Source: Macrocystis pyrifera
Taxonomy: Eukaryota > Sar > Phaeophyceae > Laminariales > Laminariaceae
Length of the DNA: 64,000 bases
Assembly (NCBI GenBank): GCA_031763025.1
Contig: JASSKH010000045.1
Location: 1,965,501-2,029,500 of the forward strand
Direction: 5' to 3'
The notes under the pieces are model-generated. The model was not told the DNA's origin, did no database searches, and saw nothing but the letters and a program-made list of their open reading frames with translations. The first letter of the stretch is position 1. Every line of letters starts with the position of its first letter. Positions 1,935 to 61,950 of the stretch are shown in pieces. A program made the position numbers and the translations under genes.

Positions 1935-2320
1935 ATGTCTTCTGGTGACTCTTCCACGAGCCTCTCCCCCGCACGGTTCAATTTTAGTGCCTCTTTCTCT
2001 CCCGTGATCCCAGGGCCGACTGATGATGACTCTTTCGAAGCCCTCTCCTCAGGGCTGACGGATGATGGGGACTCTTTCATGACCCTTTGGCAGATAATGT
2101 TTTATGGGATTTTGTCTATTTTTGCGCTAGTGTTGGTGTGGCGTCTGGCAATCTTGGCCTGGAAATTTGTCATCGCAGTTGAGAGTGGCTCTACTCTCAC
2201 AGAAATAGTACTGGGAGACGGGCTTACCGTTCATCCGCCTGCTGCAGCTGCTGTCTCGGCGCCACATGCTTCTCGCGGCCGGGCAAAATATCGGGGCGGC
2301 GCGCCATCGCCTCATCATGG
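1935..2320 (+). pseudogene. Truncated exon 1 of the membrane kinase gene (copy A)
   Basis: It encodes the acidic N-terminus, one membrane segment (WQIMFYGILSIFALVLVWRL) and the juxtamembrane motif ESGSTLTEIVLGDGLTVHPP. These match the first 130 residues of the two kinase genes at 4,177 and 60,162. At about 2,320, just after the SPHHG-encoding codons, the reading jumps into unrelated sequence and stops at 2,354. That junction is the outer edge of the left arm: downstream sequence is mirrored at 61,950 and upstream is not. The poly-Ser region, helical bundle and kinase domain are absent, so this is a broken partial duplicate. Its residues are closest to the right-arm gene. Confidence 0.75.
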
Positions 2321-3195
2321 CACTCCAGACAGCAACCGCTGTATGAGTCAATAGCCACACGAGTTGGTTAGTGGTTGGAACGGGGGGAACTCTATATGAT
2401 GTAGTTAAGAGGATATACCCGCCGACAAGTAAGTTCAGTTTGTACATTGATTTCATCTTGTGTGCGCCTTCTTCGTCTCATGTATTTTCTAAAAGCAGCC
2501 GAAGTCAGAAGTTCGATATTTTATGACTTTAAGGATCTTCCTGAGGCTCCAGCACCTTCGTGTTTTTGACCGATGGACTCCTTCATTTGAGAGTTAATGT
2601 GAGAACAACAACAACCGAAATCAAATAATTCCGAACCTAATTTCAAGTGTTTTGTCTCCACAATGGGAGTGAGTGCAGTCCTAAGTCCTAAACAGGTAAA
2701 CTTCAATTCTCTGGCCTATTACAGAGAAGTAGTATGGCGAGGGGGGTTCTCGGTTCATAGCTCATAGCTCATAGGACGTCGTAGCCGCGAGGACTACTGT
2801 TACTATTGCGAGCGTCCGCGAGCTTCGATATCGCGGGTTCGATTCTCCGTACGTATGGAGTGTGTATACATACCGGTATAGCAAACGAGACACCAACTGC
2901 GCAGAGCGCCCAGCGCCGGAAAGCACAATTCCACGCGAACCCAAGAGGGAAGAAAGTGCTGAACCCTTTTTGTGATAAAAATGCCAGGGGCGTACCGTAT
3001 ACGGTAGTGGGTTGGGGGGGGGGGGGGAAGAGCCTCCTGCTATATTACCCTGAATCCAAGCTACGACTAAAATAAGGAGGGAGCAGGAGAAATAAGGGCG
3101 AATAGGTACAATGCGCTCGCAGATGGGCCTCGCGGATAAAACATTAAACAAAGTCTGCTGAGAGAACAACCATTGTTTTTTTTCTGCCCATCCCA
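2321..3195. other. Outer arm segment without a gene
   Basis: Mirrored at 61,140-61,950. It holds a CATAGCTCATAGCTCATAGG direct repeat (about 2,756-2,774), a possible B-box-like GGGTTCGATTCTCC near 2,837, and a run of about 15 G near 3,010. Overlapping ORFs on both strands are short and differ between arms. No gene is supported. Confidence 0.6.
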
Positions 3196-3197
3196 TT

Positions 3198-4176
3198 TGT
3201 TAATGTTATATTTGCGCTACGTACTTCACCCAAGCTCGCTTCCTTTCATAACTCAGATCCGAGGTCATATTTAAAACGGGCACCCCCTCCCCCCCTCCGT
3301 CCCCACTAACGTACGGTGCGTGCCTTCGTTTTTATCGCGAAAAAAGTACAGCATTTTCTCCCCCTTCATCGACTCGCGTCGAACTGCTGTGCCTACACGG
3401 GCTGTTTCTTTTTGTATACGTCATTGTCAGCAGCACAGCATAGCACAGAGTAAAAAAAAAAAAAAAACGAAAAAGAACGAAAGAACGAAAGAACGAACGA
3501 GACAAAAAGAAGTATGGAGGGTGCCTCCGTCGGTGGTGTCGGCCATCTCTTCATCTTGGACGGGGCTGGCCGAGGCCTTGACGTGCGCTTTTCTTTCGTG
3601 ATCTGTGGCAAGGAGGTGCCTTCACAAGCCTCCCCCGCGTCTCGCAAGGAGAGAACTTCTAGAAATTGTGTGAGTGCGGGTCCTTCTCCGAAGGACCCTT
3701 TTTTCTCTCTGGCGCGTTCGGACTTCATGGCCCGAACGTCAACCATTATGAAGGTCCATTAAGTGATGGCGGATCTCATGGACCCGGGGACGTTGGTTAA
3801 CGTAACTTCATGGTTGGCATTTGTGATCGGAGATTGACGGTATCCATGTGCCCTGTCCTCCACAGAAGGGCTAAATAACTGAGCTTAAAAAAAAAACGGA
3901 AGAAAGGAAAGAAGTGCGGAGAAATTTTTCAGGGAATTTTTTTTGGGAAGGGGAGGATGGCGCTCAATGGTTTTGTCAACTGCAACTTCACACCCGTTGC
4001 ATACTTCAGTAGTGGCGGCAAGAAATTACCTGATACGGGCTATGACCTACCACGTATCACAATTAGGTTTAGGTTCATAGCCCATACAGGTTGGGCACGT
4101 CTGATACCCTCTGACACTCCTCCTTAGCTACGTACTGGTCAACCGTGTATAACTGCTGGGCCTCTCCTCAAGGCTG
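3198..4176 (+). promoter_or_regulatory. 5' flank and probable promoter of left kinase gene (copy B)
   Basis: This sequence lies directly upstream of the left kinase start and is homologous to 1,010-1,934. It contains the shared A-rich/GAAAGAACGA tract (about 3,450-3,510), the short MEGASVGGV ORF (ATG at 3,514) and a conserved block ending near GGGCCTCTCCTCAAGGCTGATG. I see no convincing TATA box. The promoter role is inferred from position and from co-duplication with exon 1 in four copies. Confidence 0.45.
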
Positions 4177-4571
4177 ATGTTTGATGATGACGTTTCAGTG
4201 ACCAGCTCTTCAGGGCAAACGGATGACTTCCCAGGGCTGACGGATGACTTCACATGGCCGACGGATGACTTCACAGGGCTGACGAATGACTTCCCAGAGC
4301 TGACGGATGATGGGGACTCTGTCAGGACTTTTTGGTCGATAGTGCTTTATGGATTTTTGTCTGTTTTTGCGCTAGTCTTGGTGTGGCGTCTGGCAATCTT
4401 GGCTAGGAAATTTGGCACCGCAGTTGAGAGTGGCTCTACTCTCACAGAAATAGTACTGGGAGACGGGCTTACCGTTCATCCGCCTGTTGCAGCTGCTGTC
4501 TCGGTGCCACATGCTTCTCGCGGCCAGGCCAAATATCGGGACGGGGCGCCATCGCCTCATCATGGCAACAT

Positions 4572-4608
<37 letters not shown>

Positions 4609-7600
4609 GGAAGTGCAGTTAGAGAGAGCGATGTAAACGAAAGGGCGCAGAATCAACAAAACGCAGCACCAGCGGCGGCGCCGGCGCCGGCGGCTATGGC
4701 CCCCACCGCGAGCGTCTCGGCAGAGGAAGGGGGCAAGTTTCGGGGCGCCCCACCTGTGGAGGAGCATGGTCGTGAGGGTGCCGGGGCCCTTGTCGACACC
4801 TCCATGATGGACACACGCCAGAGAGCAACAACAGCAGCACGCACAGCAGCAGCAGCAGCGGCAGCACCACCATCACCAACAGCAGCAGCAGCAGCACCAC
4901 CATTACCAACAGCACCACCAGCACCACCAGCACCACCAGCCCCGGCACCGTCACCGGCGCCGGAGCCAGTGTCGACGAGCGGCCGCCGTTGCGGGTCATC
5001 TGACGGAGGAGGAGGAGGAGGAGACATCTATCAGGCCGTGATGGAAGCGGCACACGACCTGGCGGAGAGGTCCCAGATCCCCGGCGTTAGCGAGGCCGTA
5101 GCACTGGTGTCGATTCTGATGAATCTCGTGGCGGACAGTCGGAGTAATGCCGAGGGTGCCGATACTGGAGTAAAGCAGTGCCGGTCGATCATCAGGCTGC
5201 TTCAGCGCGCGGAAAGGGTGCTCGGCAAGGTGAGGTGGTGCGATGCGGCAACATGGTTACATAATGTTCCGTCCTTCGTCTTGGGAGGCTGTGTACAACA
5301 TTGAAGTACAAATACTGCATGTACAGAGTACGGCTACTGCTGACTGCTGTACGTTACTGCTGCAGATATCAAGATACGAAGAAAAACAGCAATAAGAAAG
5401 GCAGGCTGGGCTTTGTAGGAAAATAAGAAATTTGGGAGTCGATAGACTGAAGTTAGTGTAGAACGCACCCATCTATAAATAAGAAATACAGCCTGGACCA
5501 GCTTTCCTGTTTCTTACTACAATACAGGTGGCCTGTACTGCTGCTGTACTGCGGGCGCGAAGTACGTTTTTCTATTATTAATATTTGTAGCTTCGTACGA
5601 GTATATAAATGTTTCCCTACGGCCAGAAAGTGCCCGATTCTCTTTCCAAGTATTTTGGACTCAAGAAGATGAGCAGGGTGTAGTTTTAACTGTATACATA
5701 GATTGAAAATAAAAAAAAACGGTGGTGTTCCGATTCGAGAATTTTTCGCCACTGACCCAACACTGACCTGTTCGCCTGTCTGCCTAAATGTATCTACGAG
5801 CATATAATATTACTAAATGTTTCCCTACGGCCCAAGTGCCCGATTCTCTTCCCAAGTATTGTGGACTCAAGAAGATGGGCTCGCATGTCTGCCTAATTGT
5901 AGGTACGAGCATATAAATGTTTCCCTACGGCCAAAAACTGCTCGATTCTCTTTCCAAGTATTGTGGACTCAAGAAGATGGGCAGGGTGAAGTTTTAACTG
6001 TATTCATAGATTGAAAAATAAAAAAAACGGTGTTCTGCTTCGAGATTTTTTTGCCACTGACCCAACACTGACCTGTTCGCCTGTCTGCCCAAGGGGGAAA
6101 TATACCAGGTACCAGGTATAAAGTATGTACATACATCGTACGTAAAAAAGATGACCTTCGATGTTGCGACTGCTCCCGACACATCTCGCGCGAGTCTTCC
6201 TGTCGAAACGTTTGAATCCATCGCCGTGCACGCTTGGCCTATATATCTTGTTGCCCGGGACCACTTCATCTACAGAGCTCACGTAGTATGTGTGTGGTTT
6301 GAACTTTTTTTTTTTTAAACTTTTGCTTTCCAGCCTAACTCGTAGGAGGATTTACCCTCAGCGATCTTCTGGACAAGCCGTGGCCACAGGTGTCGTCCCT
6401 TCTCCCCCCCGGTACGTGCCTTTAGCTTTCATCACGCATAGGGCTCAGCATTCCCACTGCTCGTCGATTTTCATCGAATTTACAGCTAACTCACGCTTTC
6501 GCGCTTTCCGCTAATCATTTTTTTGCAAGAAGAAGTCCCTACGAGCATGCACTCGGTGAGACTCGAACTCACGAAATTGATCTTGATAGGCTCGCCTACC
6601 ACCTACCAAGCCACCGGGGACGCCGGCACTGACCTTGATTGTGGTATACTCACAACTTGTTAATATAAGAATATTCAGCCTATCTTCATGATATATAATA
6701 GAGCAGTGGCCAAAAATCGGGTATACACGATGCCTTTGTGGCCAAAATCGGGTACCTTTCAGTGATCGCGACGGCCCCAGGACGCCATTTCATTGGCCAA
6801 CGCCGGCCTCCATCCGATGCTGGCCACATTTGTGCCGGGTATGCCCGATTTTGGGTACTTACCCCCCAAGAAGTACCTGATTATTGTACCCACCTACCCG
6901 AAAATGGCCACTCTAGTCGATCACAACGACCAACCACCCACCTCAGGGTTCATGCCTCTATGCCTCTCGCCTCGACGAAGACGGGCAATACCCATCTGCG
7001 TGATGTCCATGATTAGGTTCATTCTAGACTAGTATTACGGGGGACCATAGTAAACATGACCAAATATTGTTAGTAAAAATACCTAAATATATAGGTTTTT
7101 ATGTATGCCATAGGTCCTGTTAACTATAGACCCCCCGTAATACTATTAATAGTTAATTCACTCTCTCATTCGCTCTCTCTCTGCTGTAGAGTGCCGTTGT
7201 ATCAACCGCACACAGACCACCGCTCTCCCTCACTCCCTGTCATCTCCTCTCTCAGACCAAAGTTAGCGCAGCCCTCTCTCTCCCCTTCTCCCGAACCAAA
7301 AGCAACCTGAGCACAGCAGTAGTAGTAGTGACGGATCGTGGGCGACGCTACCAACTTCGTGACAAATAATGTGTTACTATCCAGTCACAAACAAAGAGTG
7401 GGCAATGCTATGCAACACCTCTTCCTGGATTTCTGGCAACGCTGGAATTCTTAAGAGGCAGGGTGTGTCCGACCCTATTTTCAGCACAAAAAATGCCATA
7501 TTCTTATTTTCGTCTGACTCTCGAGCCTGTAATTCTTAACAGTCTATCTCGTACGGGTAAGTAAGTGCTGTCGCGTACGACTACTAGTGTCGTCATCATG

Positions 7601-10600
7601 CATTTTTTCGACACGCACGCGCCGGGTTTTGTTCGGTGCCTGAGGCTGTATACGTATCTGGAACAGAAACTTTCGAATAACAGGTACAAAAATGTTGGAC
7701 GACGATGGACGAACTACGAACTACTCGTTCGTAGGAGGGGTGTGATATGAGTCCATTTGTTCTTACTGTAGGAAGTTAATGTTGCGTAGCGTCAACTATT
7801 TTACACATTACGACCCAACGATGGAGGTGCCATCGCCAAATTTTTCATTCAGCATCGAACTCGTTGACTAATGCTCCCAACTGCTTACTATACATGTGGA
7901 AGACGCACGATACGATCCGGTGGGAGTAGCATTTCTTGGCGAAATCGTTTCTGCCTGCTGTAGCTCCTTATCTGACGAAGTACCTAATGTCGTCAAACAA
8001 CCGTTTGTGTTTTAGAGGTTGTCTGTTGTTTACCTAGGCCATTGTCTTGCACTTTCATGTTCTTTCAAGGTCAGGTTCTGGGTGAGAAAGTGAGCTTCTC
8101 GAGCGAAGAGCCCCAGGAGCGAGTCGGTGCACCCCTTTCGTACAGTAGTACGTGTCGGAAGATTTTTCCTAACTTTTGGTACCGACTGCTATCCTTTGCA
8201 ATCTCGAAGACCTGTTTTTTTTTTTTTCAAGTAGGTAGGTTTTTCCTCAGCGAATACGCTCTACCGCCGTGCAGGGAATAATAGGCCCACATTTTGTTCA
8301 GGCCCGTGTAACATCGGCGGCGGTATGAGCGAACGATGCATCGAAAAACTCGATTCAATATTCAACCCTATTTGAGACACAGCTATTAATAGCTTTAGCT
8401 TTGATCGTGATGCATATATCGTGAGTGGTGGTTGGGCAGCTCCCTCCAAATTGAGCTTTGATCAGCGTCCGAGGAATCGGAGGGGATGTATGTTTGTACT
8501 ACCCGAAGCTATGGCATGTGCGCGCTGTACATATATATGTGAATTATAATCTTGCGGTATGTTTGGTTTACACATGAAAAACGAAGCCACAAGAAAACCG
8601 CGACTGAGCGCGTTTGTTTGCGTAAACTGCCCCCCCTCGTGCGCCCCATGCAGGACGGTGATTCGGCCAGACAAGAATCAGAGAGTGAAATGATTGAGGA
8701 CGTGCACGATGCGGTCGCCGATCTGGTGCAAATAATAAAAATCTACCAGAGCAGGAACAAAGTATCTCAGGTTCTGATGTCGACGCTGTTTAAGCGTCGT
8801 CAGGAAGAGGCGGAGGCGGTCATCGACAGGGCTATTTGGCGCCTAAACGTGAGTCCGTTCGTGACACACGAATCACACCTTTCGCACGATTTTTTTTCCA
8901 AGCCGATGTGTCGTCGTTTGGTTTTTTTTTTTTCATACTGACGAAGCAGCATCGGTTGGGTTTCTAAGGCGCCGAAAATGTTTGCTTGTTGGTTGTCAGC
9001 ACGCTTCACCACTGAAAAAACGAGCCTACAGTGATTTCATGTGGAATTCTCCAATCAAAGCGTGGTTACCGTTTTTTATAGTTGTAACTGGGCCTGACCT
9101 TCACGATGAGTTGTTTCCTGGCGCCTTCATCCGAGGACAGGCCCAGATCCCGGATCGGCTAGTATATAAGTATACCCTGGTACATCACAACGCCTGGATA
9201 CAGCAGTGCTTGAGTAAGGTACTGAAGCTCGGTCTACTGCTATGCGGCACAGTGCGCTCACCGCCAGCATGAAGGAAACAAGTATTTTCGGCTGGATGCG
9301 TAGCACCGCATACCGTGGTAGGTAATATAAACATGTGAGGATTGACCTAAAATTAATCCTCTGTGCGCGGACGTTTTGGGATTTTCTGGACTTTTTAATT
9401 CGTTTTACCGTGAGTTGTTCTAATATTCCCGAGAGGTAGGTGTGCATTGCCGACGTATAGATATGAATGCGTGATACTCCTTGAACATGGAAAGGCCTTT
9501 CCATAAGACATGGAAAAGCCTTCCCATAAGAGATACATTAGATCCTCCTTCTATGTTTACCCTGAATATAACTACCCGCGAAGCCGGTCGCGGAATCACA
9601 TAAATAACGAACGGTGCTCCCACAATACGCTGATTTGGTAGTCCACACTCCTTACGATTCAAAGCCACTACAGGCAATGCGGACGCTTCCCTTTACCCGG
9701 TCTCATATCTTACGTTATTTAGTCAAGTAGAAGCTCGTGAAAGCTTCCCCTAATTCCAAGGAAAAATCCACTATCTCCGTGAAGTTTTCCACTACTTCCA
9801 TGAAAGCGCCCGCTACTGCCATGGAAGCTTCAGTTACTTCCACGGAATCTTACTTCGCTTCCATGAACATGACGTATTATGTTTTGTGACCCCCTTTGCC
9901 TGTGGTTTGCACGCCACAGTTGAACTTGCACGTAGAAGTAGGGCAAAAACTGCAGGACGTGGGCGAAGACGTTAAGGAGGGATTACGCCTTCAGGCCGCT
10001 CAAGCGGCCAAGGTGAGCCGGCCACGATGTTTGTTTTTGGTGTTCCAACTCACCCGATAGACCCATGCAAAGGTTTGTTGTATTCGTTCATAAGCCGGGA
10101 GACGAGCTACTTGTATATCGAACATGGCGTTGGAACCTATCAGAGGCTACCACTGAAGAGACCGAGGCGAGGTCTACTGCTGAGGGTTTCTTTGTGAAAT
10201 GGCAAGCTGTTTCTTTATGTATCCGGACCGCGTATGTATGTGTGCCTGTTTTTTCTTCCGTCGGGATGCTGATTGGCCGATGGCGATATCGGGCTGGATT
10301 TCAGAGCAAAGGAAATGACGTCTCAAAAGAGCACCATCACCATAATATTTTGCGAATCTTGCTTGGAAACTGTATCACATGCTGTGATTGTTCACCCAGT
10401 TCTCTCAGATACGTCATAGCCTCCATACGTATACAGCTGATAGCCCACATCTTGTTGTGTTTTTTCATTGAGCAGGAAGTCGTGGTGGCCGGGCCAATTT
10501 CGGATTCCCTAGCGGAAGCCCGTCGCGTGCGGCGGCAGCGAAATCTGGATACGATCCAAATCCCCGAGGACCATGTGTTGGTAACTGACGAGCTGCTGGG

Positions 10601-12765
10601 AAAGGGCGGGTTCGGTGCGGTCTACATTGCCGACTACAACGGCCGAAACGCCGCTGCCAAGGTGAATTACATCAAACGATCATCAAACAATCGGGGCGCG
10701 AGAGGAGCGTCACCATGTATGTCCGCCTTCCCCTACAGTACAGTATACCGGTACCTGTGTGCAGGACCCCTACCGAGTAAGAAAGCTACTGTAGGCTACG
10801 GTTCGCAGGAAAATGTGAAATTATGGGATCATGCTACTGATTCCTATATACAAGACACCTTTTTTCCAAATGTTGAATCCCGCCTGAGCCAGGATTTCCC
10901 GTTTCTAACTATTGCAGGTGTCCAGTACTGCATACGACAACATATTTCCGAGAAGGAAGCAAACAGGGTTTGGAAGAAAGGGAGCAAAGAGACATGCAAC
11001 CCCCGAGGAGAGGTGCAATTGTGGAGCGAAACTCTCTGCCGGCCAGGCGGGCTTTGCAAGAAGAGGCAATGTCTCGTGGTAAATGTGGTCGGCCGCTAGT
11101 TTCGAAGTTCGTTTTCGCTTCGCAAACTCTTGAGCAGACGTTGCCTCACACAAGCTGATGTGCCCGCTTGCGCCGGATCGATTGAATAATGTGTAGGTTC
11201 TGAATGTCACCCATGACCTTGGGGGACCCGGCGGCTTAGACAGCGACGACGACGGTATCAGGGATAGAAAGCAAGGCACGTCCAAGAGCGACCAGGCCAA
11301 GCTCCAACGCAAAGCGTTCTTGCGGGAGCTAGACGCGATGATGCGCCTCAGGAGCCCTCACACGGTGAACGTCTACGGAGCCATGATGTCTCGCGGAGAC
11401 CGCCTTGTTCTCGTCATGGAACTCTTAGCGGGCGGTGACCTGCTCACATTCTTGCGGAACTCCGTCGAGCCGCTTGCGGACGGCCTCGTCAGGCGTATCA
11501 TCGGAGACGTATGCGCGGGCATGGCGTTCTTGCATGCCCGGGAAGCCGTCCATGGGGACCTCAAATCTGCGAACGTGTTGCTGGATGGAGACGGCCGGGC
11601 GAAGGTGAGACGACAAGTTTGACTACATCGTACGCGTGTACAAAATATGACAGGCGCGCAACAGCTGCATGTAAGACAAGCGCTGGGGCGACTCCTGCTG
11701 CTGCGACCAACGTGCATAACATGTTTACCGCGATGCAGGGAAACAGGCTCCCTGGCTCTTCCTTCCGTCATTCCAACGATTGAAGGATCTAAACAAGATA
11801 TATACGGTACGATTACCGAGGTTTGGTACTCATGCTCAAGTAAAACATCAGAAGGGGCGAGCTTCATCGTCAGCAAAGTGATAAGGTTGATGAGTTTTCC
11901 TTCTTGTTTCGTTGTGTGTTCAGATCGGAGACTTCGGGACATCGAAATGGGTACAACACACTGACTCTACCGGTCTCGCCACGTACACGGGCAGCGAGAT
12001 GCAGGGTGGAAAGATGAGTCTCGCATGGGCCGCCCCTGAGGTACGTTGTCATGCGAACAAAAAACCGATACAATAGGCACGCCCACCGTCAAGATCGGTC
12101 TATATAGAGAACGCAGCGAAAGCCCTAGGCAGAAACAAAACGGAGGTGTAGATAGCGAGGTACTGGTGCCCAATCACGACGGTTGTATAAAAATGAATAT
12201 AGGTGTACAGATCACAGGTCAGGCATGTTTAGTCTGCGGCGAGTTCGAGCTTAGTATGTAAGCCCGAGCAAGGTTCAAGACTATCACCCCAAACGGTCAC
12301 GAATAGGGCACGTTGTGCATTGTGCCGATAAACGGGCGCACCTTCTTCCGCGAGCTTCGCCCGAAATATGTCGTCCTCGTTGCCCCAAGGCTTGTGCACA
12401 ACAAGCATGCGTTGAATACTACCGTCCCCGCGCCTTATCACACACCGTACACATGTACCGGTATGCGTTAAATCTTCTGCCTCTTAAAGGTACTAGAGAC
12501 CAAGGGCAACTCCTACGCAAGCGACGTGTACAGCTTCGGCATTGTCACATGGGAGGTCATCACCAGACAGCTTCCTTGGGCGGACCAACCTCTCGCTCGA
12601 GACATCTTTTTGCGCGTAGTCATGAAGGGAGAGCGTCCGGTTATCCCCGCCGACAGTCCTTCGGATATCGCACAGGTCATTCGGGCGTGCTGGGCCGAGG
12701 TACCCTCAGATCGCCCCACGTGTCATGAGGTCATGAAAGGCATGAAGTTGATAGGTTGGAAGTAA
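4177..12765 (+). CDS. Membrane-anchored TKL-like protein kinase, left copy, 7 exons
   Basis: Seven exons join in one frame: 4177-5229, 8654-8848, 9920-10012, 10476-10661, 11197-11604, 11924-12040 and 12490-12765. All introns are GT-AG and all are phase 0, giving 775 aa. Residues 1-50 are acidic (LTDDF-type repeats), 52-74 form one membrane segment, 132-143 are Ser-rich, and about 163-280 are Ala/Pro/Gly low complexity. Residues 284-447 (IYQAVMEAAHDLAERSQIPG onward, then KISQVL-like and FKRRQEEAEAVIDRAI) look like an MLKL-type helical bundle. The kinase domain has a Gly loop LGKGGFGAV (488-496), Lys509, a charged insert at 512-548, Glu553 in RELDAM, HGDLKSANVLL (catalytic Asp630), DFG (648-650), APE (682-684) and YSFGIVTWEVITRQLPW. 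HRD is HGD, so this is a non-RD kinase. The substrate is unknown. It is probably a signalling kinase at a membrane. The ATG at 4177 is the first in frame; the related copies instead begin MSSGD. Confidence 0.86.
5600..6090. repeat. Imperfect tandem repeats in kinase intron 1
   Basis: About three partial units carry CCCTACGGCC..GTGCCCGATTCTC, CAAGTATT.TGGACTCAAGAAGATG and GACCTGTTCGCCTGTCTGCC. The mirrored intron in the right arm has the same units at about 57,690-57,880 and 58,430-58,670, split there by about 510 bp of other DNA. They lie inside the 3.4-kb first intron. No function is apparent. Confidence 0.7.
6305..6624 (-). mobile_element. tRNA-derived SINE, copy 1
   Basis: Read on the minus strand it begins GGCGTCCCCGGTGGCTTGGT, has an A-box-like TGGCTTGGTAGG and a B-box-like GAGTTCGAGTCTCA in a perfect T-arm stem (GTGAG/CTCAC), and ends in an A-rich tail (the T-run at 6,305 on +). 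Copies 2 and 3 lie at 49,753 and 62,212. The right arm at about 57,495 reads straight through from GGTTTGAA to CTGACCTTGATT, which is an empty site. The insertion therefore post-dates the arm duplication. It lies in kinase intron 1. Confidence 0.85.
7035..7140. mobile_element. Short MITE with TTACGGGGGACC termini, copy 1
   Basis: A 106-bp element with terminal inverted repeats beginning TTACGGGGG and ending CCCCCCGTAA, and an AT-rich middle containing ACCAAATATTGTTAGTAA. It is flanked by TA on both sides, as in Tc1/mariner-related Stowaway-like elements. A second copy is at 36,900-37,012. The mirrored right-arm site near 57,078 lacks it. It lies in kinase intron 1. Confidence 0.82.
7141..8653. 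other. Rest of kinase intron 1, no gene seen
   Basis: It contains a CT-rich block (about 7,160-7,300), CAGTAGTAGTAG, a T-run near 8,217-8,228, and otherwise unremarkable DNA mirrored in the right arm. It ends with the acceptor CCCCATGCAG before exon 2. Short ORFs here are not conserved in frame between arms. Confidence 0.5.
9715..9885. repeat. About 30-bp minisatellite in kinase intron 2
   Basis: About six loose units contain CACTACTTCCATGAAAGC-like sequence. In the right arm (about 54,420-54,560) the same array is open on the minus strand and would encode MEASVTSTES-like repeats. The left array is not open in the matching frame, so a coding role is unlikely. Confidence 0.6.
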
Positions 12766-14770
12766 CTATTACCAGGTGCTGTGGTTAGAGGACAACCTCA
12801 AGCACATGGCGTCGGTTGGCTTATACTACCGTTTCGTTGTACCAAAACAGTCATCTCTGTCTGGCAGCATTCTCTTCATAGAGCTACTGTAGACCCCACG
12901 GTTGAGCCTATGCTGATTCCGCGGGTGTCTGGTGGAGATTTACACTTGCCGTGGTTTTCTTGGCAGGCTTCGCATCCACTATCGGGTAGTGTCCATTTCA
13001 GCGACATATTGAGTATCAACTGTAGTACGGTTGAGTTCGATCGAAGTGTCGCGACCAATGCGTACAATGATGATGGTGTGGTGGTAACCAACCAGTACCC
13101 TTGTGATACTAAGATTGCATCGATCTGGTGTACGACCAGGCATGCTCGGTGCAGTACGGCGACGATGGAATGCCGGTATGGTCTGGTCATTGGAGAACGT
13201 CTGGAGGTGGGAAAATGGCATAAGTAGATTACTCAACGGTTTCGTAGTCGGCAGCCTCCCTCTTTGCCCGAGGGTTTTGTCAAAGTAGTCCTCGGACGCT
13301 CTACTGTCTACGCTTATCATCAAGGAATTGGTGCTGATGGTGCTTTTTCTGTAGTTGTTGAACCCCCCGGCGCTATCTTCCATCAGGGTTGAGTGCTCTG
13401 GGTTCTGGCCAAACTTCCCAAGCGTCGCGACCAAGGGTCCGTTGTTGTCCTTGTTGTGCCCGCGCGCCGGTGTCCCAAGCATATGGTATTGTTATCATGT
13501 GCTCCACCGATACGCTTGACGTCCTGCATGGAACAATGGCCATTAACCCGTATTAGAAAGCCTTGTTCCCCTTGCGCTGCACGGTGGTGCTCCTGAAACC
13601 AATTGGCGATGTTGGCGTTGCCTTTGTTGGTCTGTTTATTGTGGAGCTGGCGCTCATCATCTCAATGCGATGTAGTCAAGTGTGCGAGCACCACTTGTCC
13701 TCTCCTCCGCGTTTTTCTCTCTGCTGTTTCGCGTGATGATTCCTGCCCTTTACTTTCCATCCGCCGTTAGAATGGGACGTCGTTTTGTGCAAAGATCACC
13801 GCTTCGGGGACCCTCGTTGGGGTTTCTTGTAAGTGGGGTCGTGCTTGGAGCAATTAAAATCCCCCTTGAGGTGCTCAATCTGCCTGCAGATATCGTCTTA
13901 GATAATAAAGCCATTGGTTATGTAGCCCTTCAAGCTATGGGGGTCATCCCACGCTTTCACGGCGATACCGTGGCCCGCAATTAGCGGTGCGTTCGCCGGA
14001 CACGAAAGGAGGTCCGTGTTCACATTACGCGTCGTTGTTTTGACGTCTCGAACCCGTACTTCCGGTCTCTCAAGTGTTAATTTAGCACGAAGTTGTAGTC
14101 ACGTGTGAAGGCATTGAGTAAGAAGTCGACGAAGTGTTCGGGGCAGAATGTGCTCACCCATGTAATTAAGACAGACTCGAGCTGTCTCCATGACGTATAC
14201 AGAAAATCGCCTGAGTTCTGGCCCTGGTTCTTCTTGCACGTTCCTCGTTAATCTCGGAGTGGCGTTGCTGGCAGCATCGTGATTCTTCACGAGCGCCTTC
14301 CAATCCAGTCGTTCGTCCATCCCTACGTCAATCTTCCGTTTTTGCCCTCATGTTGCCGTGCAACTGCAGTGGCTCCTTCGTTTCTAGCTCTTTTTAGGAA
14401 GACGACAGAGTAGAGGTTGGCGTTGTTGCGCTGCCGGCGGACGAGGTTGCCGCCGACCGTCGGGTTCAGACCTTCCTTCCCCATACGTAGACCGTATGCA
14501 TCAGGGGCTGACACATCCAGGCGGACGCTGACCTTCCTTTTCCACTAGCAATACGCGTACCCGCCCGTCGACCCACGGGAGACTCTCCGTCATTGATACC
14601 ACTTTGTTGGTGGTGGTGTCGTCCATTTTGCGAAGCATTACTGCTGCGGCACATGGTGCGTATGTGCCGCAACTTTGCAGATCCCGCCACTTTATGGAGA
14701 ATATTTCGCCGCGCTACTGCTGTAGGTCCTACCGTGACGCAATTTTGCGGGCTGGCTTTGCTGCACTTGG
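12766..14770 (-). pseudogene. Unidentified ORF remnant region downstream of left kinase
   Basis: The minus strand holds an open stretch at 12,979-13,482 (167 aa, starting MLGTPARGHNKDNNG). It is the C-terminal part of the 232-aa ORF at 50,613-51,311 in the right arm. The left version lacks about 18 nt and has a 1-nt difference just upstream that closes the frame. Further upstream on the same strand are disconnected open pieces (14,099-14,690) with RLTRNVQEEP and RMGKEGLNPTVGGNL, also mirrored. I do not recognise the family. It may be a decayed gene or transposon protein, or chance. Confidence 0.35.
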
Positions 14771-15000
14771 TGCGTGCTTTCAGATATCAAATTGTGGGCT
14801 TGGGATACGGTACCTTTACGGGATGTTCTTGTAGCGAGCTTCAATTTCAGCTCTGCAGGTTTGGGACACCAAGTTCACGGTATGTGTTGAGGTACTTGGT
14901 GCAAGTTTCTGTCAAGGCTGGTGTGGTTTGTGATACCACAACGTCACGGTGTGTGCTATGTACTTGCGCTGCGAGTTTCTATTTCAAGCTGTAGACTGCT
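14771..15000. repeat. About 75-bp imperfect tandem repeats
   Basis: About three units contain GTACTTGGTGC, a GTTTGGGATACCAAGTTCACGG-like segment and GTATGTGTT. Mirrored at about 49,010-49,230. No coding signal is seen. Confidence 0.55.
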
Positions 15001-18000: not shown

Positions 18001-18690
18001 CTACTATGTGGTAAAAAAATAGAAAAAACAATGAAAAAATGGTCATAGATGGTCTTGAAGGAGGTGTGCATACACGGACAAGAAATATGGTTGGGCAGTA
18101 CGAACGAAGCCAGACTAACAGCTGGTAGCTGGACAGTCTGCCGTGTGGCTTTGCCAGTCTCGTCTAATGAAGCAGCTAACCGGTGATAACAAGACATTGA
18201 GTTATACCACATGAACAGGAAAAAGCTGGCGTATTCAGAGGAGATACCGGCCGTAATACGGGATGAATTATTGTATACGATTTTATAAGAAACTAAGAAA
18301 GCACGTCAGCTGTGAGTTCAACCGATCTATAGAATGTGATACCAACAACGATCAATAATGAAAGACACCACTACGTGGTGTTATATAGTGAATATGTATG
18401 CTAAAAAAATACATACAACCGGTGAGGGGAGAAAATCAGGGCTACACTCTGGTGAAGCACAAGTCAGTACGCGACAACAACTAATAATCTCAAAAGGTCA
18501 AACAATAAACTAAAACTTCATAGCAGACTGGCGACCCACGATACTCTTACAGTAACTATTAATAGGTGTATACATACTGCAGCTGTCATTGTCGAGTACA
18601 CCGAAATAGATATAGATACGATATTGTTAGCCCTTTGCTCTCAGCGTTCCTCAGCGTTTTTTAGACATGTTTTCTGCGTTGTTCGTGCTA
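15001..18690. other. Gene-poor arm DNA
   Basis: Mirrored at about 45,250-49,000. It has a 33-bp duplicated GTGGGGCTCTGTGGGTGG element (about 15,130-15,195), loose repeats of GGCGAACTGATGGAATCTGA (about 17,650-17,780), and a small palindrome ACACCACTACGTGGTGT near 18,368. ORFs are short, occur on both strands and are not frame-conserved between arms. I see no gene. Confidence 0.5.
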
Positions 18691-20350: not shown

Positions 20351-20435
20351 GCTGATGCCTGATGTTTCCGGTCAACTTCGGGCATGCGAGATTATTTGCC
20401 CTCCCCAAAAATAGAAAATAATTAATCATGTTTAT

Positions 20436-31954: not shown

Positions 31955-31962
31955 ACGCACAT

Positions 31963-42937: not shown

Positions 42938-43060
42938 CATACTTGTAAAATTCGGTAAAAATGGAATATAGACGAGGCGTATTACGCAGCTTGCAAAGTT
43001 GAGTATCAACTATTTAATCAGTCGAACTCACAGCTGACGTGTTTCAAAATTTATAAAATA
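42938..43060 (-). repeat. Dispersed repeat E, half copy
   Basis: The first half of repeat E on the minus strand, the mirror of 20,844-20,965. Confidence 0.7.
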
Positions 43061-43074
43061 TGCCGGTATATTTA

Positions 43075-49752: not shown

Positions 49753-50092
49753 ATTTTTTTTATTTATTTATTTATTTATTTTCATCACTTTTACTTTCCA
49801 GCCCACTCGTAGGAGGTTTTACCCTCGACAATCTTCTGGACAAGCCGTGGTCACAGGTGCCGTCCCTTCTCCCCCCCGGTACGTGCCTTTAGTTTTTTAT
49901 CGCGCATAGGGTTCAGCATTCCCACTGCTCGTCGATTTTCATCGAATGTACAGCTACCTCACGCTCTCGCGCTTTCCGCTAATCAATTTTATGCAAGAAA
50001 AAATCCCTACGAGCATGCACTCGGTGATACTCGAACTCACGAAATTGATCTTGATAGGCTCGCGGACCACCTACTAAGCCACCGGGGACGCC
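49753..50092 (-). mobile_element. tRNA-derived SINE, copy 2
   Basis: Same structure as copy 1. It starts GGCGTCCCCGGTGGCTTAGT on the minus strand, has a B-box-like GAGTTCGAGTATCA, and ends in a TTTATTTATTTA run (plus strand). The left arm near 14,165 reads GTCTGTCTTAATTACATGGG without a break when read on the minus strand, which is a clean empty site. The insertion is therefore younger than the arm duplication. Confidence 0.85.
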
Positions 50093-50612
50093 GGTGGTAA
50101 TTACATGGGTGAGCACATTCTCCCCCGAACACGTTGTCGACTTCTTACTCAATGCCTTCACTCGTGACTACAACTTCGTGCTAAATGAACACTTGAGAGA
50201 CCGGACGTACGGGTTCGAGATCTCAAAACAACGACGCGTAATGTGAACACGGACCTCCTTTCGTGTCCGGCAAACACACCGCTAATTGCGGGCCACGGTA
50301 TCGCCGTGGAAGCGTGGGATGACCCCCACAGCTTGAAGGGTTACATAACCAATGGCTTTATTATCTCTAGAAGACGATATCTGCAGGCAGATTGAGCACT
50401 GCAAGGGGGATTTTAATTGCTCCAAGCACGACCCCACTTACAAGAAACCCGAACGAGGGTCCCCGAAGCGGCGATCTTTGCACAAAACGACGTCCCATTC
50501 TATCGGCGGATGGAAAGCAAAGGGCAGGAATCATCACGCGAAATAGCAGAGAGAAAAACGCGAAGGAGAGGACAAGTGGTGCTCGCACACTTGACTACAT
50601 CGCATTGAGACG

Positions 50613-51311: not shown

Positions 51312-51530
51312 TGGATGCGAAGCCTACGAAGAAAACCACAGCAAGGATAAATCTCCACCAGACACCTGCGGAATCAGCATAGGCTCAACCGTGGGGTCTA
51401 CAGTAGCTCTATGAAGAGAATGCTGCCAGACAGAGATGACTGTTTTGGTGCAGCGAAACGGTAGTATAAGCCAACCGACGGCATGTGCTTGAGGTTGTCC
51501 TCTAACCACAGCACCTGGTAATAGCTATTT

Positions 51531-54500
51531 TCAACCAATCGACTTCATGCCTTTCACGACCTCATGAAACGTGGGGCGATCTGAGGGTACCTCGGCCCAG
51601 CACGCCCGAATGACCTGTGCGATATCCGAAGGACTGTCGGCGGGGATAACCGGACGCTCTCCCTTCATGACTACGCGCAAAAAGATGTCTCGAGCGAGAG
51701 GTTGATCCGCCCAAGGAAGCTGTCTGGTGATGACCTCCCATGTGACAATGCCGAAGCTGTACACGTCGCTTGCGTAGGAGTTGCCCTTGGTCTCTAGCAC
51801 CTTTACGAGGCAGAAGATTTAACGAATATCAGTACATGTGTACGGTACGTGATAAGGCGCGGGGACGGTAGTATTCAACGCATGCTTGTTGTGCACAAGC
51901 CTTGGGGCAACGAGCACGACATATTTCGGGCGAAACTCGAGGAAGAAGGTGCGCCCGTTAGTCGGCGCAATGCACAACGTGCCCTACTTTGACCGTTTGG
52001 GGGGATAGTCTTGAACCTTGCTCGGGCTTACATACTAAGCTCGAAATCACCGCAGAATAAACATGCTTGACCTCTGATGTGTACACCTACATTCATTTTT
52101 ATACAGCCGTCGTGATGGGGCACCAGTACCTCGCTATCTACACCTCTGTTTTTGTTTCTGCCTAGGGCTTTCGCTGCGTTCCCTATATAGACCGATCTTG
52201 ATTGTGGGCGTGCCTATTGTATCGGTGTTTTGTTCGCATGACAACGTACCTCAGGGGCGGCCCATGCGAGACTCATCTTGCCACCCTGCATCTCGCTGCC
52301 CGTGTATGTGGCGAGACCGGTGGAGTTAGTGTGTTGTACCCATTTCGATGTCCCGAAGTCTCCGATCTGAACACACAACGAAACAAGAAGGAACATTCAT
52401 TAACCTTGTCACTTTGCTGACGATGGAGCTCGCCCCTTCTGATGTTTTACGTGAGCATGAGTACCAAACCACGATAATCGTACTGTATATATCTTGTTTA
52501 GTTCCTTCAATCGTTAGAATGACGGAAGGAAGAGCCAGGGAGCCCGTTTCTCTGCATCGCGGTAACCACGTTATGCGTGTTGGTCGCAGCAGCAGGAGTC
52601 GCCCCAGCGCTTGTCTTACATGCAGCGGTTGCGCGCCTGTTACATTTTGTACACGCGCACGATATAGTCAAACTTGTCGTCTCACCTTCGCCCGGCCGTC
52701 TCCATCCAGCAACACGTTCGCAGATTTGAGGTCCCCATGGACGGCTTCCCGGGCATGCAAGAACGCCATGCCCGCGCAAACGTCCCCGATGATACGCCTG
52801 ACGAGGCCGTCCGCAAGCGGCTCGACGGAGTTCCGCAAGAATGTGAGCAGGTCACCGCCCGCTAAGAGTTCCATGACGAGAACAAGGCGGTCCCCACGAG
52901 ATATCATGGCTCCGTAGACGTTCACCGTGTGAGGGCTCCTGAGGCGCATCATCGCGTCTAGCTCCCGCAAGAACGCTCTGCGTTGGAGCTTGGCCTGCTC
53001 GCTCTTGGACGTACCTTGCTTTCTATCCCCGATACCGTCGTCGTCGCTGTCTAAGCCGCCGGGTCCCCCAAGGTCATGGGTGACATTCAGAACCTACACA
53101 TTATTCAATCGATCCGGCGCAAGCGGGCACGTCAGCTTGTGTGAGGCAACGTCTGCTCAAGAGTATGCGAAAGGAAAACGAACTTCGAAACTAGCGACCG
53201 ATCACATTTACCACGAGATATTGCCTCTTCTTGCAAAGCCCGCCTGGCCAGCAGGGAGTTTCGCTCCACAATTGCACCTCTCCTGAGAGGTTGCATGCTC
53301 TGTTTGCCCCCTATCTTCTAAACCCTGTTTGTTTCCTTCACGGAAACATGTTTTCGTATGCAGTACTGGACACCTGCCATAGTTAGCAACAGGAATCCTG
53401 GCTCAGGCGGGATTCAACGTTTGGCCATAAAGTATCTTATATATAGGAATCAGTAGCATAATCCCATAATTTCACATTCTCCTGTGAATCTTATCCTACA
53501 GTAGCTTTCTTACTTGGTAGGGGTCCTGTACACAGGTACCGGTATACCGTACTGTAGGGGAAGGCGGATATACATGGTGACGCTCCTCTCGCGCCCCGAT
53601 TGTTTGATGATCGTTTGATGTAATTCACCTTGGCAGCGGCGTTTCGGCCGTTGTAGTCGGCGATGTAGACCGCACCGAACCCGCCCTTTCCCAGCAGCTC
53701 GTCAGTTACCAACACATGGTCCTCGGGGATTTGGATCGTATGCAGTTTTCGCTGCCGCCGCACGCGACGAGCTTCCGCTAGGGGATCCGAAATTGGCCCT
53801 GCCACCACGACTTCCTGCTCAATGAAAAACCACAACAAGATGTGGGCTATCAGCTGTCGACGCATGGAGGCTATGACGTACCGGTATCTGAGACAACTGG
53901 GTGAACAATCACAGCATGTGATACAGTTTCCAAGCAAGATTCGCAAAATATTATGGTGATGGTGCTCTTTTGAGACCTCATTTCCTTTCCTCTGAAATCC
54001 AGCCCGTGATCGCCATCGGCCAATCAGCGTCCCGACGGAAGAAAAACCAAGCACACATACATACGCGGTCCGGATACATGAAGAAACAGCCTGACATTTC
54101 ACAAAGAAACCCTCAGCAGGAGACCTCGCCTCGGTCTCTTCAGTGGTAGCCTCTGATAGGTTCCAACGCCATGTTCGATATACAAGTAGCTCGTCTCCCC
54201 GCTTGTGAGCGAATACAACAAACATTTGCATGGGTCTATCGGGCGAGTTGGAACTCAAAAAACAAACATCGTGGCCGGCTCACCTTGGACGCTTGAGCGG
54301 CCTGAAGGCGTAGTCCCTCCTTAACGTCTTCGCCTACGTCGTGCAGTTTTTGCCCTACTTCTACGTGCAAGTTCAACTGTGGCGTGCAAACCACAGCAAG
54401 GGGGTCACAAAACATGATACGTCATGTTCATGGAAGCGAAGTAGGATTCCGTGGAAGTAACTGAAGCTTCCATGGCAGTAGTGGAAGCTTTTATGGAAGT

Positions 54501-57500: not shown

Positions 57501-59733
57501 ACCGCACACATACTACGTGAGCTCTGTAGATGAAGTTGTCCCGGGCAACAAGAGATGGGCCAAACGTGCACGGCGATGGATTCAAACCTTTCGACAGGAA
57601 GACTCGCGCGAGATGTGTCGGGAGCAGTCGCAACATCGAAGATCATCTTTTTACATACGATATATGTACATACTTTATACCTGGTATATTTCCCCCCTTG
57701 AGCAGACAGGCGAACAGGTCAGTGTTGGGTCAGTGGCAAAAAAATCCCGAATCGGAACACCACCGTTTTTTTTTTTAATTATTTTTCAATCTATGAATAC
57801 AGTTAAAACTGCACCCTGCCCATTTTCTTCATTCCACAATACTTGGTACACTACTTTCGAATCTACACAAAAAGCCATATAAAATAATATCTAGACATTA
57901 AAACAACAGAAGTAGCAAAAACAGCAGCAGCAAGAATAGCAGCATTATTCACACTTAGAACCATACTACTAAGACAACAGAAGTAACAAAAACAACAGCA
58001 GTAGTAGCAAGAACAGCAGCAGCTCATCTCCGGAAGAATTATTCACACTTCGAACCAAATCAATAACACTCAATCAATCTATAAATATTTGTGAAATGCA
58101 AAGGTTTCAACATGTTGCAACATCATATCAATATCCCTTGTTCGGGTTATATAGTATCAGTGCGCAGAATGATTATTTAAAATTGTCCTGTTGACCCGGG
58201 CAGCATCCAGGGGAGCCGCTGGCCTATATCTTTGACCAGGAATCAAATATAGAATACGCGCGCTCGGTTTATCACAATACTTGTAAAATTCGGTAAAAAT
58301 GGAATATAGACGAGGCGTATTACGCAGCTTGCAAAGTTGAGTATCAACTATTTAATCAGTCGAACTCACAGCTGACGTATTTCAAAATTTAGAAAATACT
58401 TGGAAAAATAGTCGGGCACTTTTTGGCCGTAGGGAAACATTTATATGCTCGTATCAATAGCTACAATTAGGCAGACAGGCGAACAGGGCAGTATTGGGCC
58501 AGTGGCAAAAAATTCTCGAATCGGAACACCGTTTTTTTTTTTTTTTTTGATGTACAGTTAGAACTGCACCCTGCCCATCTTCTTGAGTCCACAATAATAC
58601 TTGGAAAGAGAATCGGGCACTTTTTGGCCGTAGGGAAACATTTATATGCTCGTAGCTACAATTATTAATAGTAGAAAAAATACATTTCGCGCCCGCAGTA
58701 CAGCAGTACAGGCCACCTGTATTGCAGTAAGAATCAGGAAAGCTGGTCCAGGCTGTATTTTTTATTTATATTTATATAGATGGGTGCGTTCTACACTAGC
58801 TTCAGTCTATCGACTCCCAAATTTCTTATTTTCCTGCAAAGCCCAGCCTGCCTTTCTTATTGCTATTTTTCTTCGTATCTTGTTATCTGCAGCAGTAACG
58901 TACAGCCTTTCTTATTGCTATTTTTCTTCATGTCTTGTTATCTGCAGCAGTAACGTACAGCAGTAGTAGCCGTACTCTGTACATGCAGTACACAACCTCC
59001 CAAGACGAAGGACGGAACATTATGTAACCATGTTGCCGCATCGCACCACCTCACCTTGCCGAGCACTCTTTCCGCGCGCTGAAGCAGCCTGATGATCGAC
59101 CGGCACTGCTTTACTCTTGTGTTGGCACCCTCGGCATTACTCCGACTGTCCGCCACGAGATTCACCAGAATCGACACCAGTGCTACCGCCTCGCTAACGC
59201 CGGGAATCTGTGACCTCTCTGCCAGGTCGTGTGCCGCTTCCATCACGGCCTGATAAATGCCTCCTCCTCCTCCTCCTCCGTCTGATGACCCGCGACGGCG
59301 GCCGTTCGTCGACACTGGCCCCGGCGCCGGTGACAGTGCCGGGGCTGGTGCTGCTGCTGGTACTGGTGGTGCAGTTGGTGATGGTGGTGGTGCTGCTGCT
59401 GTTGGTGATGGTGGTGGTGGTGGTGCTGTTGGTGATGGTGGTGGTGCTGCTGCTGTTGGTGATGGTGGTGGTGTGTGCTGCTGCTGCTGTGCGTGTTGCT
59501 GTTGTTGCTCTCTGGCGTGTGTCCATCATGGAGGTGTCGACAAGGGCCCCGGAACCCTCACAACCATGCCCCTCCACACGTGGGGCGCCCCGAAACTTGC
59601 CTCCTTCCTCTGCCGAGACGCTCGCGGTGGGGGCCATAGCCGCCGCCGCCGCCGCCGCCGCCGCCGCTGCTGGTGCTGCGTTTTGTTGATTGTGCGCCCT
59701 TTCGTTTCCATCGCTCTCTCTAACTGCACTTCC

Positions 59734-59770
<37 letters not shown>

Positions 59771-60162
59771 ATGTTGCCAGGAGGCGATGGCGCCCCGCCC
59801 CGATATTTGGCCTTGCCGCGAGAAGCATGTGGCGTCAAGACAACAGCTGCAGCAGGCGGATGAACGGTAAGCCCGTCTCCCAGTACTATTTCTGTGAGAG
59901 TAGAGCCACTCTCAACTGCGATGCCAAATTTCCTAGCCAAGATTGCCAGACGCCACACCAAGACTAGCGCAACAATAGACAAAATCCCATAAAACATTAT
60001 CTGCCAAAGGGTCATGAAAGAGTCCCCATCATCCGTCAGCCCTGGGGAGAGGGCTTCGGAAGAGTCATTATCAGTCGGCCCTGAGATCATGGTCGAGGAA
60101 GAGCCGTCATCATTGAACCATGATGAGGGGAAGCTCGTGGGAGAGTCACCAGAAGACATCAC
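51531..60162 (-). CDS. Membrane-anchored TKL-like kinase, right copy; exon 1 frame change
   Basis: Exons on the minus strand are 60162-59055, 55609-55415, 54376-54284, 53814-53629, 53093-52686, 52366-52250 and 51800-51531. Splice sites match the left gene exactly. Exons 2-7 are open and all phase 0: helical bundle, Gly loop GKGGFGAV, catalytic Lys, HGDLKSANVLL, DFG, AWAAPE. Exon 1 has MSSGDSPTSFPSSW, the same membrane segment, poly-Ser and poly-Ala. Within the CAGCAG/CACCAC tract near 59,450-59,470 the frame shifts by one. Exon 1 is 1,108 nt, not a multiple of three, and the shifted frame stops at 59,194 after 322 codons, before the bundle. It is either a pseudogene encoding only the membrane stub or a base-call error in a microsatellite. 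The C-terminus is two residues shorter (GMKSIG). Confidence 0.78.
57885..58400. repeat. Right-arm-only insert: CAA/CAG-rich DNA plus full repeat E
   Basis: About 510 bp interrupts the intron-1 tandem repeats. The left part (57,895-58,060) is rich in ACAACAGAAGTAGCAAAAACAGCAG. The right part (58,105-58,400) is repeat E on the minus strand. It includes the uninterrupted TATCAGTGCGCAGAATG that corresponds to the gypsy insertion point at 21,086. Confidence 0.75.
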
Positions 60163-60289
60163 CCCAGGGGAGAGGCACAGCAGTTATCCACCACGGGTGA
60201 CCAGAACGTGGCTAAGGAGGGATGTCAGAGAGTATCAGACGTACGCAACCTACATGGGCTATGAAGCTAAAAATAACTGTTGAACATGG

Positions 60290-61100
60290 TAGGTCATAGC
60301 CCGTACCAGGTAATGCTGCTGCTGTAGTACGCAACGGATGCGAGGGTTGACAAAACCATTGAGCGTCCATCCTCCCCTTCCTAAAACATTTTCCCTGCAA
60401 AATTTCTCCGCACTTCTTTCTTTTCTTCCGTTTGCTTTTAAGCTCCTTTATTTAGCCCTTCTGTGGAGAACAGGGTACGTAGATACCGTCAATCTCCGAG
60501 CACAAGTGCCAACCATGAAGATAAGTTTACCAGCGTCCGGTTTATGAGATCCGCCTTCACTGATGGACCTTCATAATGGTTGGTGTTCGGGCCATGAAGT
60601 CCGAACGCGCCACGAAGAAAAAACCGCACTCTCACAATTTCTAGAAATTCTCTCCTTGCGAGACGCGAGGGAGGCTTGTGGAGGCACCTCCTTACCACAT
60701 ATCACTAAAGAAACGTGCACGTCAAGACCTCGGCCAACCCCGACCAAGACGAAGACAGGGCCGACACCACCAACGGAGGCACCTTCCATACTTCTTTCTG
60801 TCTCGTTCATTCTTTCGCTCTTTCTTTCTTTCGTTATTTTCCGTTCTTTTTTACTCTGTGCTCTTTTGTGCTGCTGTTTATGACGTACACAAAAAACACC
60901 CAGTGCGTGTAGGCACAGCAGTTCGACGCGAGTCGACGAGAGGGAAGAAAACGCTGAACTTTTTTCACTATAAAAACGAAGGCACGCACCGTACGTTAGT
61001 GGGGAGGGAGGGGGGAGGGGGTGCCTGCTTTTAATATGACCCCGGATCTGAGTTATGAAAGGAGGGGAGCTTGGGCGATGTACGTAGCGCGAAGATAATA
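60290..61100 (-). promoter_or_regulatory. 5' flank and probable promoter of right kinase gene (copy A')
   Basis: Homologous to 1,010-1,934 and 3,198-4,176 but closest to the former. It shares SSRYVHRPSSPP-encoding DNA and the GATAAGTTTACCAGCGTCCGG block. It contains the MEGASVGGV ORF on the minus strand. The promoter role is inferred only from position. Confidence 0.45.
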
Positions 61101-61139
61101 TTAACTGCATTAATTACATAGGAGGGGCAGAGAAAACAA

Positions 61140-61950
61140 TGGTTGTTTTCTCGCAGCAGACTTTGTTTTATGTTTTATCCTCATCCCATCTGCGAGCGCA
61201 TTGTACCATTTCGCCCTTCTTTCTCCTGCCCCCTCCTTATTTTAGTCGTCTCAGATTCAGGGTCATGTAGCAGGCTCTTCCCCCCCCAACCACAACGGTA
61301 CGCCCCTGGCATTTTTATCGCAAATAATGGTTCATCACTTTCTTCCCTCTTGGATTCGCGTCGAACTGTGCTTACCGACGCTGGGCGCTCTGCGCAGTTG
61401 GTGTCTCGTTTGCTACACAGGTACATATACACACTCCATACGTACGGAGAATCGAACCCGCGATATCGACGCTCGCAATAGTAATAGTAGTCCACGAGGT
61501 TACGACGTCCTATGAGCTATGAGCTATGAGCCTAGAACCCCCCTCGCCATATTCCTGCTTTGTCATAGGCCAGAGAATCGAAGTTTACCTGTTTAAGACT
61601 TAGGACTGCACTCACTCCCATTGTGGAGACAAACACTTGATATTAGATTCGGAATTATTGGGTTTCGGTTGTCGTTCAAATGAAGGAGTCCGTGGTCAAA
61701 AACACGAAGGTGCTGGAGCCCCAGGAAGATCCGAAAAACTGTGAAAAAACGAAATTCGGCTGATTTTAGAAAATACATGACACGAAGAAAGCGCGAACAG
61801 AAGATGAAATCAATGTACAAACTGAACTACAGCAGTAACATGGCCGCGGGTACGATATATCCTCTCAACTACAGCATAAAGTTTGCCCGGTTCCCACAAC
61901 TAACCAACTCGTGGCTATTGACTCGTACAGCGGTTGCTGTCTGGAGTGTT
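61140..61950. other. Outermost right-arm segment, no gene
   Basis: Mirror of 2,320-3,195. The repeated CTATGAGCTATGAGCTATGAG at about 61,510-61,530 pairs with CATAGCTCATAG in the left arm. Confidence 0.55.

Follow-up and report, generated by a model that had tools for sequence, protein, structure and literature searches.

Inverted segmental duplications generally consist of two nearby copies of a sequence in reverse orientation that diverge after copying, and the copies of a segmental duplication are by definition longer than 1 kb and more than 90% identical. The arms of the palindromes on the human X and Y chromosomes carry genes. A large inverted repeat with a protein kinase gene in each arm makes up most of a 64,000-base stretch of the Macrocystis pyrifera genome (assembly GCA_031763025.1, contig JASSKH010000045.1, positions 1,965,501 to 2,029,500 of the forward strand; hereafter "the window", with positions counted from its first base). 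Judged by its sequence, the structure would be a real, old inverted segmental duplication whose arms have drifted apart with patchy exchange between them, a reading to which we assign a probability of about two in three.

The described systems that come closest are summarized here from excerpts of the cited papers. The palindrome W.P1 of the willow W chromosome has arms of about 20 kb, a spacer of 3.6 kb, and limited gene conversion (PMC7023750). The structure in the window resembles W.P1 in its gene-bearing arms of similar size, limited patches of apparent conversion, and old retrotransposons, whereas W.P1 is sex-linked, is part of a set of four arms in two palindromes, and has had its conversion tested against a second species (PMC7023750). 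The inverted-repeat pairs of Caenorhabditis likewise consist of paralogous genes, which are convergent in one example and for which gene conversion has been proposed, but the arm length stated for them is about 2.2 kb, their spacers measure 126 and 414 bases, their arms are often 95–100% identical (83% in one case), and they form a structure that is conserved among species (PMC1803023). Gene conversion also acts on, or preserves, the large inverted repeats that form the human X and Y palindromes, and it maintains their arms at more than 99% identity (PMC3723533, PMC8981503); aligned identity here is about 94%.

In the features that could be tested, the window does not differ from inverted segmental duplications in general, and its structure belongs to a known, ordinary kind. 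None of the titles listed by a literature search on palindromes and genome assembly in Ectocarpus describes such a nuclear structure, which is not to claim that it is absent from print. If real, the locus provides an example of a large inverted duplication in decay, with some parts drifting, other parts overwritten by the opposite arm, and a duplicated kinase gene whose fate can be followed; should it prove an artefact, the gene counts of the assembly would call for caution, as two alleles would have been tallied as two genes.

Architecture and arm-specific insertions

Comparison of the window with its own opposite strand revealed a mirror chain that runs inward from 2,321/61,948 to 32,597/37,515, and a control comparison with the plain reversal of the window (same word size and E cut-off) returned no match. 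An earlier note on this DNA had described nearly the whole window as one imperfect palindrome in collinear mirror order, with arms of about 24.5 kb around a spacer of about 4.9 kb, and this description is borne out. There is no N in the 64 kb, and the join is free of gaps. The main parts are as follows.

2,321–32,597, forward strand: left arm, 30,277 bases with its insertions counted, the mirror of 61,948–37,515
32,598–37,514, no strand: spacer, 4,917 bases, its halves without mutual mirror homology
37,515–61,948, reverse strand: right arm, 24,434 bases, with mirror matches to the left arm

When all opposite-strand matches between the arms are counted (the main chain and a few short off-diagonal ones), the right arm is covered over 23,524 of its 24,434 bases and the left arm over 23,432 of its 30,277. 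The shortfall on the left is mostly due to one 5.8-kb long terminal repeat (LTR) retrotransposon at 21,087–26,850, which the right arm lacks. The arms thus form long, collinear, opposite copies that exceed both 1 kb and 90% identity, with 23.5 kb covered and a substitution divergence of 5.6% inward of 5,954; at 83.8% identity with gaps, the segment 2,321–5,402 near the outer end falls under the 90% line. Outside the left arm, an array of 42-base units lies at 343–695 (8.4 copies, about 71% alike). No match was obtained in the window with Rfam at gathering thresholds. The introns and transposons mark the DNA as eukaryotic, and the look of the transposon proteins would suit a stramenopile, perhaps a brown alga.

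At the inner end, the homology between the arms stops abruptly at 32,597 and 37,515 against unrelated spacer sequence, and no mirror homology was detected past these positions, which agrees with the sharp inner end noted earlier. Mirror homology is likewise absent between the two halves of the spacer, whose best match in a search with 7-base words had an E value of 0.59; a comparison of the spacer with its own opposite strand (E ≤ 0.01) yielded only a single self-complementary site of 42 bases. An open frame on the reverse strand of the spacer (34,830–36,104) matches the reverse transcriptase family RVT_1 with an E value of 4e-06 and 27.1 bits, below the Pfam cut-off of 29.6. A small element of some 100 bases that bears terminal inverted repeats (TTACGGGGGACC...) is present both in the left arm (7,042–7,140) and in the spacer (36,918–37,012), the two copies being 78% alike. 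A stretch at the very end of the window (63,861–64,000), which starts exactly where the outer right 5′-exon block ends (see below), matches the spacer at 34,627–34,763 with 97.8% identity and is perhaps a truncated non-LTR element.

Four insertions are each confined to one arm or the other.

21,087–26,850, reverse strand: LTR retrotransposon, left arm only, with a single 1,654-amino-acid open frame between 236-base repeated ends that are identical
31,963–32,396, forward strand: 434-base insertion, left arm only, which has a target duplication of 8 bases (ACGCACAT) and contains a CCCTAA-type array at 32,096–32,146
6,305–6,627, no strand: short interspersed element, left arm only, right-arm site empty
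49,754–50,097, no strand: short element of the same family, right arm only, left-arm site empty

Because each arm carries elements that the other lacks, the arms have been separate long enough to receive different insertions. For three of the elements (6,305–6,627, 49,754–50,097, and 31,963–32,396), the unoccupied site is directly visible at the mirror position, which confirms the claim of the earlier note that the transposon content differs between the arms. The LTR retrotransposon, whose frame yielded matches to reverse transcriptase, RNase H, and integrase and a sub-threshold match to a chromodomain, was probably inserted recently. Its target duplication is ambiguous, as the four candidate bases also end its other LTR. 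It interrupts a dispersed repeat that occurs in four places and reaches a length of about 320 bases (847–972, 20,841–21,087 together with 26,847–26,932 on either side of the LTR element, 42,936–43,061, and 58,080–58,398), the last being an uninterrupted relative.

The short elements belong to a family of 320–340 bases with a T/A-rich end, of which a third copy lies at 62,212–62,552. No clear target duplication was found for the copies at 6,305–6,627 and 49,754–50,097. An internal stretch of the element is, to our eye, presumably tRNA-like; ARAGORN (bacterial code) reported no genes in the window. The array in the 434-base insertion comprises 8.5 telomere-type CCCTAA units according to Tandem Repeats Finder and is surrounded by many words resembling CCACGGCAT or ATGCCGTGG; the insertion is perhaps a mobile element with telomere-like repeats. 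A fusion of chromosome ends, which the presence of such an array beside the spacer might suggest, was rejected, because the array lies inside a later insertion, one that has a target duplication of 8 bases and is missing from the right arm.

Divergence along the arms and probable traces of exchange

From 5,954 inward, the arms differ by substitutions at 994 of 17,632 aligned sites (5.6%), with indels in addition; this average is slightly raised by a few short internal repeats around 19,078–20,839 that were mispaired in the underlying chain of the self-comparison, which also missed most of the pair 19,078–20,839/44,971–43,067 (91.8% identity when aligned). The divergence varies strongly along the arm, from 12.1% at 2,321–4,500 and 11.1% at 7,142–8,250 to 4.7–6.3% at 8,250–19,000; it drops to 2.6% at 27,403–31,000 and returns to 6.0–7.6% in the parts adjoining the spacer. 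The part with the lowest divergence is

27,403–31,000, no strand: 2.6% divergence, no recognized gene, weak traces of reverse transcriptase, and 454 identical bases at 29,175–29,628

Compared with 8,250–19,000 (590 of 10,582 sites differing), this part (94 of 3,592) is about twofold more similar between the arms (Fisher's test, p = 5e-14). The longest identical run is the 454-base tract, whereas the maximum over 1,000 shuffles was 231 bases, under the assumptions of independent sites and a single rate for the whole stretch.

Coding constraint as the cause of the low divergence is not supported. None of the left-arm frames of at least 45 amino acids in the 27.4–31.0 kb part passed a test that required at least four differences with at least 55% of them at third positions, a test without power in identical tracts, where frames have zero to three differences. 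Three frames from this part yielded a single weak trace of RVT_1 in Pfam (E 0.18), and the right-arm frame 39,444–40,025 had no Pfam match; the segment 29,857–29,942 is 76% similar to the reverse transcriptase frame of the spacer (E 2e-5). Conversion from one arm to the other would be the natural reading of this patch.

At the outer end, the homology extends past 2,321/61,948 to 1,027/63,861 through a repeated 5′-exon block, and the sharp outer boundary claimed in the earlier note does not hold. The block is present in four copies.

1,004–2,322, forward strand: outer left copy, 81% identical to 3,417–4,567 and 89% to 59,781–60,888, cut near the position of the CAG repeat of the inner copy
3,196–4,567, forward strand: inner left copy, nearest kin the outer right copy
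59,781–61,105, reverse strand: inner right copy, nearest to the outer left copy
63,033–63,861, reverse strand: outer right copy, ending at 63,861

The outer copies pair with each other (1,027–1,816 with 63,861–63,037) at 10.5% substitutions, but the closest pairs are crossed: 3,219–4,061 with 63,861–63,033 (95.6% identity) and 1,195–2,313 with 60,888–59,781 (89%). In the first 800 columns of the alignment, 18 of 736 sites differ between the inner left and the outer right block, against 86 of 732 between the inner left block and the inner right block, its partner in mirror position; in the next 200 columns, the counts are 13 of 105 (fewer sites, as the outer right block ends within these columns) and 30 of 184. 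All 52 sites that divide the four blocks two against two group inner left with outer right and outer left with inner right, and none supports mirror or tandem pairing, a count that mainly shows that the inner left and outer right copies, being so alike, are each other's closest kin. A single exchange between these two copies, later than most of the divergence of the arms, would explain the crossed pairing. Crossed blocks were dropped as a means of discriminating alleles from paralogues, since misaligned exchange is possible in either.

Some exchange between the arms is likely, judging from the twofold greater similarity of the 3.6-kb part with its 454-base tract together with the crosswise outer block. 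In this comparison of the two arms with each other, all three features would fit conversion. The earlier note had set the arms apart from palindromes that are kept alike by conversion; they are indeed not kept identical (5.6% substitutions), but the 3.6-kb patch and the crosswise block hint at exchange.

Convergent kinase genes

Each arm contains one multi-exon kinase gene that is aimed at the spacer, so that the two genes are convergent. The exons recognized are as follows.

4,153–5,229, forward strand: first long exon of the left gene, in the open frame 4,153–5,301, with donor GTGA after 5,229
8,687–8,848, forward strand: helical exon of the left gene, 5′ end left undefined, with donor GTGA in both arms
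10,512–12,765, forward strand: left kinase exons at 10,512–10,661 (5′ end left undefined), 11,197–11,604, 11,924–12,040, and 12,490–12,765
51,525–53,778, reverse strand: right kinase exons as aligned, at 53,778–53,629, 53,093–52,686, 52,366–52,250, and 51,800–51,525
58,938–60,183, reverse strand: first exon of the right copy, with the front in one reading frame and the helical end in another (in the left copy the frame stays open over the whole exon)

Apart from the exons with undefined 5′ ends, the splice donors and acceptors that were examined match between the two arms, and the stop codon of the right kinase lies two residues before the position in the left copy. Among the left exons, 11,197–11,604 (E 3.3e-22) and 12,490–12,765 (E 3.7e-15) match PF07714, as does 11,924–12,040 below the cut-off (E 0.0066); 10,512–10,661 has no Pfam match, and a glycine loop is recognizable by reading. 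The motifs GKGGFG, AAAKV, HGDLKSAN, and DFG, which we take to be the glycine loop, the lysine, the catalytic, and the DFG motifs of kinases, are readable in both arms. A PDB search with exon 11,197–11,604 matched solved kinases, with TYK2 first and RIPK1 among the matches listed. By domain and motifs, the arm gene is predicted to encode a tyrosine-kinase-like protein kinase.

The four kinase exons differ by 2.2–3.4% between the arms, and the introns between them by 6.5–7.5%. The exon divergence of about 2–3% given in the earlier note is therefore right for these exons, alongside the 5.6% average of the arms. Over 315 codons, nonsynonymous divergence (dN) is 0.014 and synonymous divergence (dS) is 0.064, with a dN/dS of about 0.2. 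The excess of silent changes and the lower divergence of the exons relative to the introns show that, by the codon pattern, the predicted kinase protein has been under constraint for at least part of the time since the arms diverged.

The first long exon encodes, by reading, a transmembrane-like stretch, a low-complexity linker, and a helical end; its only Pfam match is TrbL_3, below threshold (20.1 bits versus 23). In the helical end (5,026–5,229), dN is 0.020 and dS is 0.176, in line with constraint, and the protein of the second helical exon (8,687–8,848) is identical between the arms in 54 of 54 residues. The helical exons strike us as reminiscent of brown-algal MLKL-like kinases, a type with a four-helix bundle ahead of the kinase domain. 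This likeness remains a lead: neither of the two exons, which are helical by reading, had a Pfam match at E ≤ 1, and a PDB search with one of them (E ≤ 5) gave five weak matches, the best to a designed armadillo repeat protein (0.0043) and none to MLKL.

Origin of the inverted repeat

In the favoured scenario, a block of about 24 kb of the nuclear genome with one multi-exon kinase gene and transposon debris would have been copied in reverse beside itself, by a template switch or the repair of a breakage, and the two copies would have been set apart by a spacer of about 4.9 kb. Each arm would then have gathered its own substitutions and insertions, while recombination between the arms would occasionally have overwritten pieces, such as the 3.6-kb part near the middle and one 5′-exon block at the outer end. 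We infer that both arms are located on one chromosome and that the similar patches derive from gene conversion.

Several points weigh against this scenario. The first exon of the right copy carries a frame break, and a part of exon 1 (4,393–4,566) shows no constraint, with nine replacement and no silent changes in 56 codons; over the whole frame 4,153–5,301, changes at codon positions 1, 2, and 3 number 44, 33, and 28, without an excess at third positions. Because of the break and the unconstrained stretch, the right gene copy may be a pseudogene, or else the sequence may give the wrong number of bases for its triplet repeats. In addition, the same divergence, insertions, and patchiness could be seen between alleles if the species is very diverse or the region does not recombine, and a large insertion in only one haplotype could account for the unrelated spacer. 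The case was judged from the window itself, with no confirmed relative for comparison: a search of the prokaryotic and viral collections genome_contigs and viral_contigs with a few short patterns confirmed none, which is little informative for a eukaryote.

The main rival is an assembly artefact in which diverged haplotypes of one locus were fused head to head across the spacer. Alleles also show patchy divergence and one-sided insertions, and the evidence is confined to the window. However, two alleles fused in error would be expected to match right up to the junction, whereas here the detected homology of both arms ends at 32,597 and 37,515, against a spacer with unrelated halves; for this reason, a duplication is favoured over joined haplotypes. 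The artefact would require a misjoin to coincide with a structural difference between the haplotypes at exactly that place, and no N marks the join. A neutral divergence of about 6% is also very high between alleles in most species. Overall, we consider a haplotype join rather unlikely, if the strongest of the competing explanations.

A special case of real duplication, whose odds overlap with those of the favoured one, is an active palindrome with arms kept by ongoing gene conversion, as on the sex chromosomes of mammals and willow. The 454-base identical tract, the 3.6-kb part at 2.6%, and the recent cross-arm exchange at the outer end would fit such a palindrome, but most of the arm is 5–6% diverged without any sign of being kept alike, 2,321–4,500 has reached 12%, and the right gene copy carries a frame break. 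Palindromes maintained by conversion have arms that are more than about 99% identical, compared with the 5.6% substitutions found here, which makes active maintenance improbable. It would be a long shot to go further and see in the locus a palindrome that has persisted for a long time in a probable stramenopile, a lineage apart from animals and land plants, perhaps in a non-recombining region, where occasional conversion keeps a convergent pair of kinases related that are possibly of an immune or cell-death type.

The merger of two separate paralogous loci of one gene family in a chimeric contig is more improbable still. Repetition and cross-pairing of the outer blocks point to a gene family that duplicates readily, but the collinearity over 24 kb reaches beyond the gene and takes in introns, intergenic sequence, and transposon debris. 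A foldback or missed-adapter read, in which both arms would represent one molecule, is ruled out by the one-arm insertions with empty mirror sites and by the codon-structured differences between the kinase exons, where replacement changes per site are fewer than silent ones.

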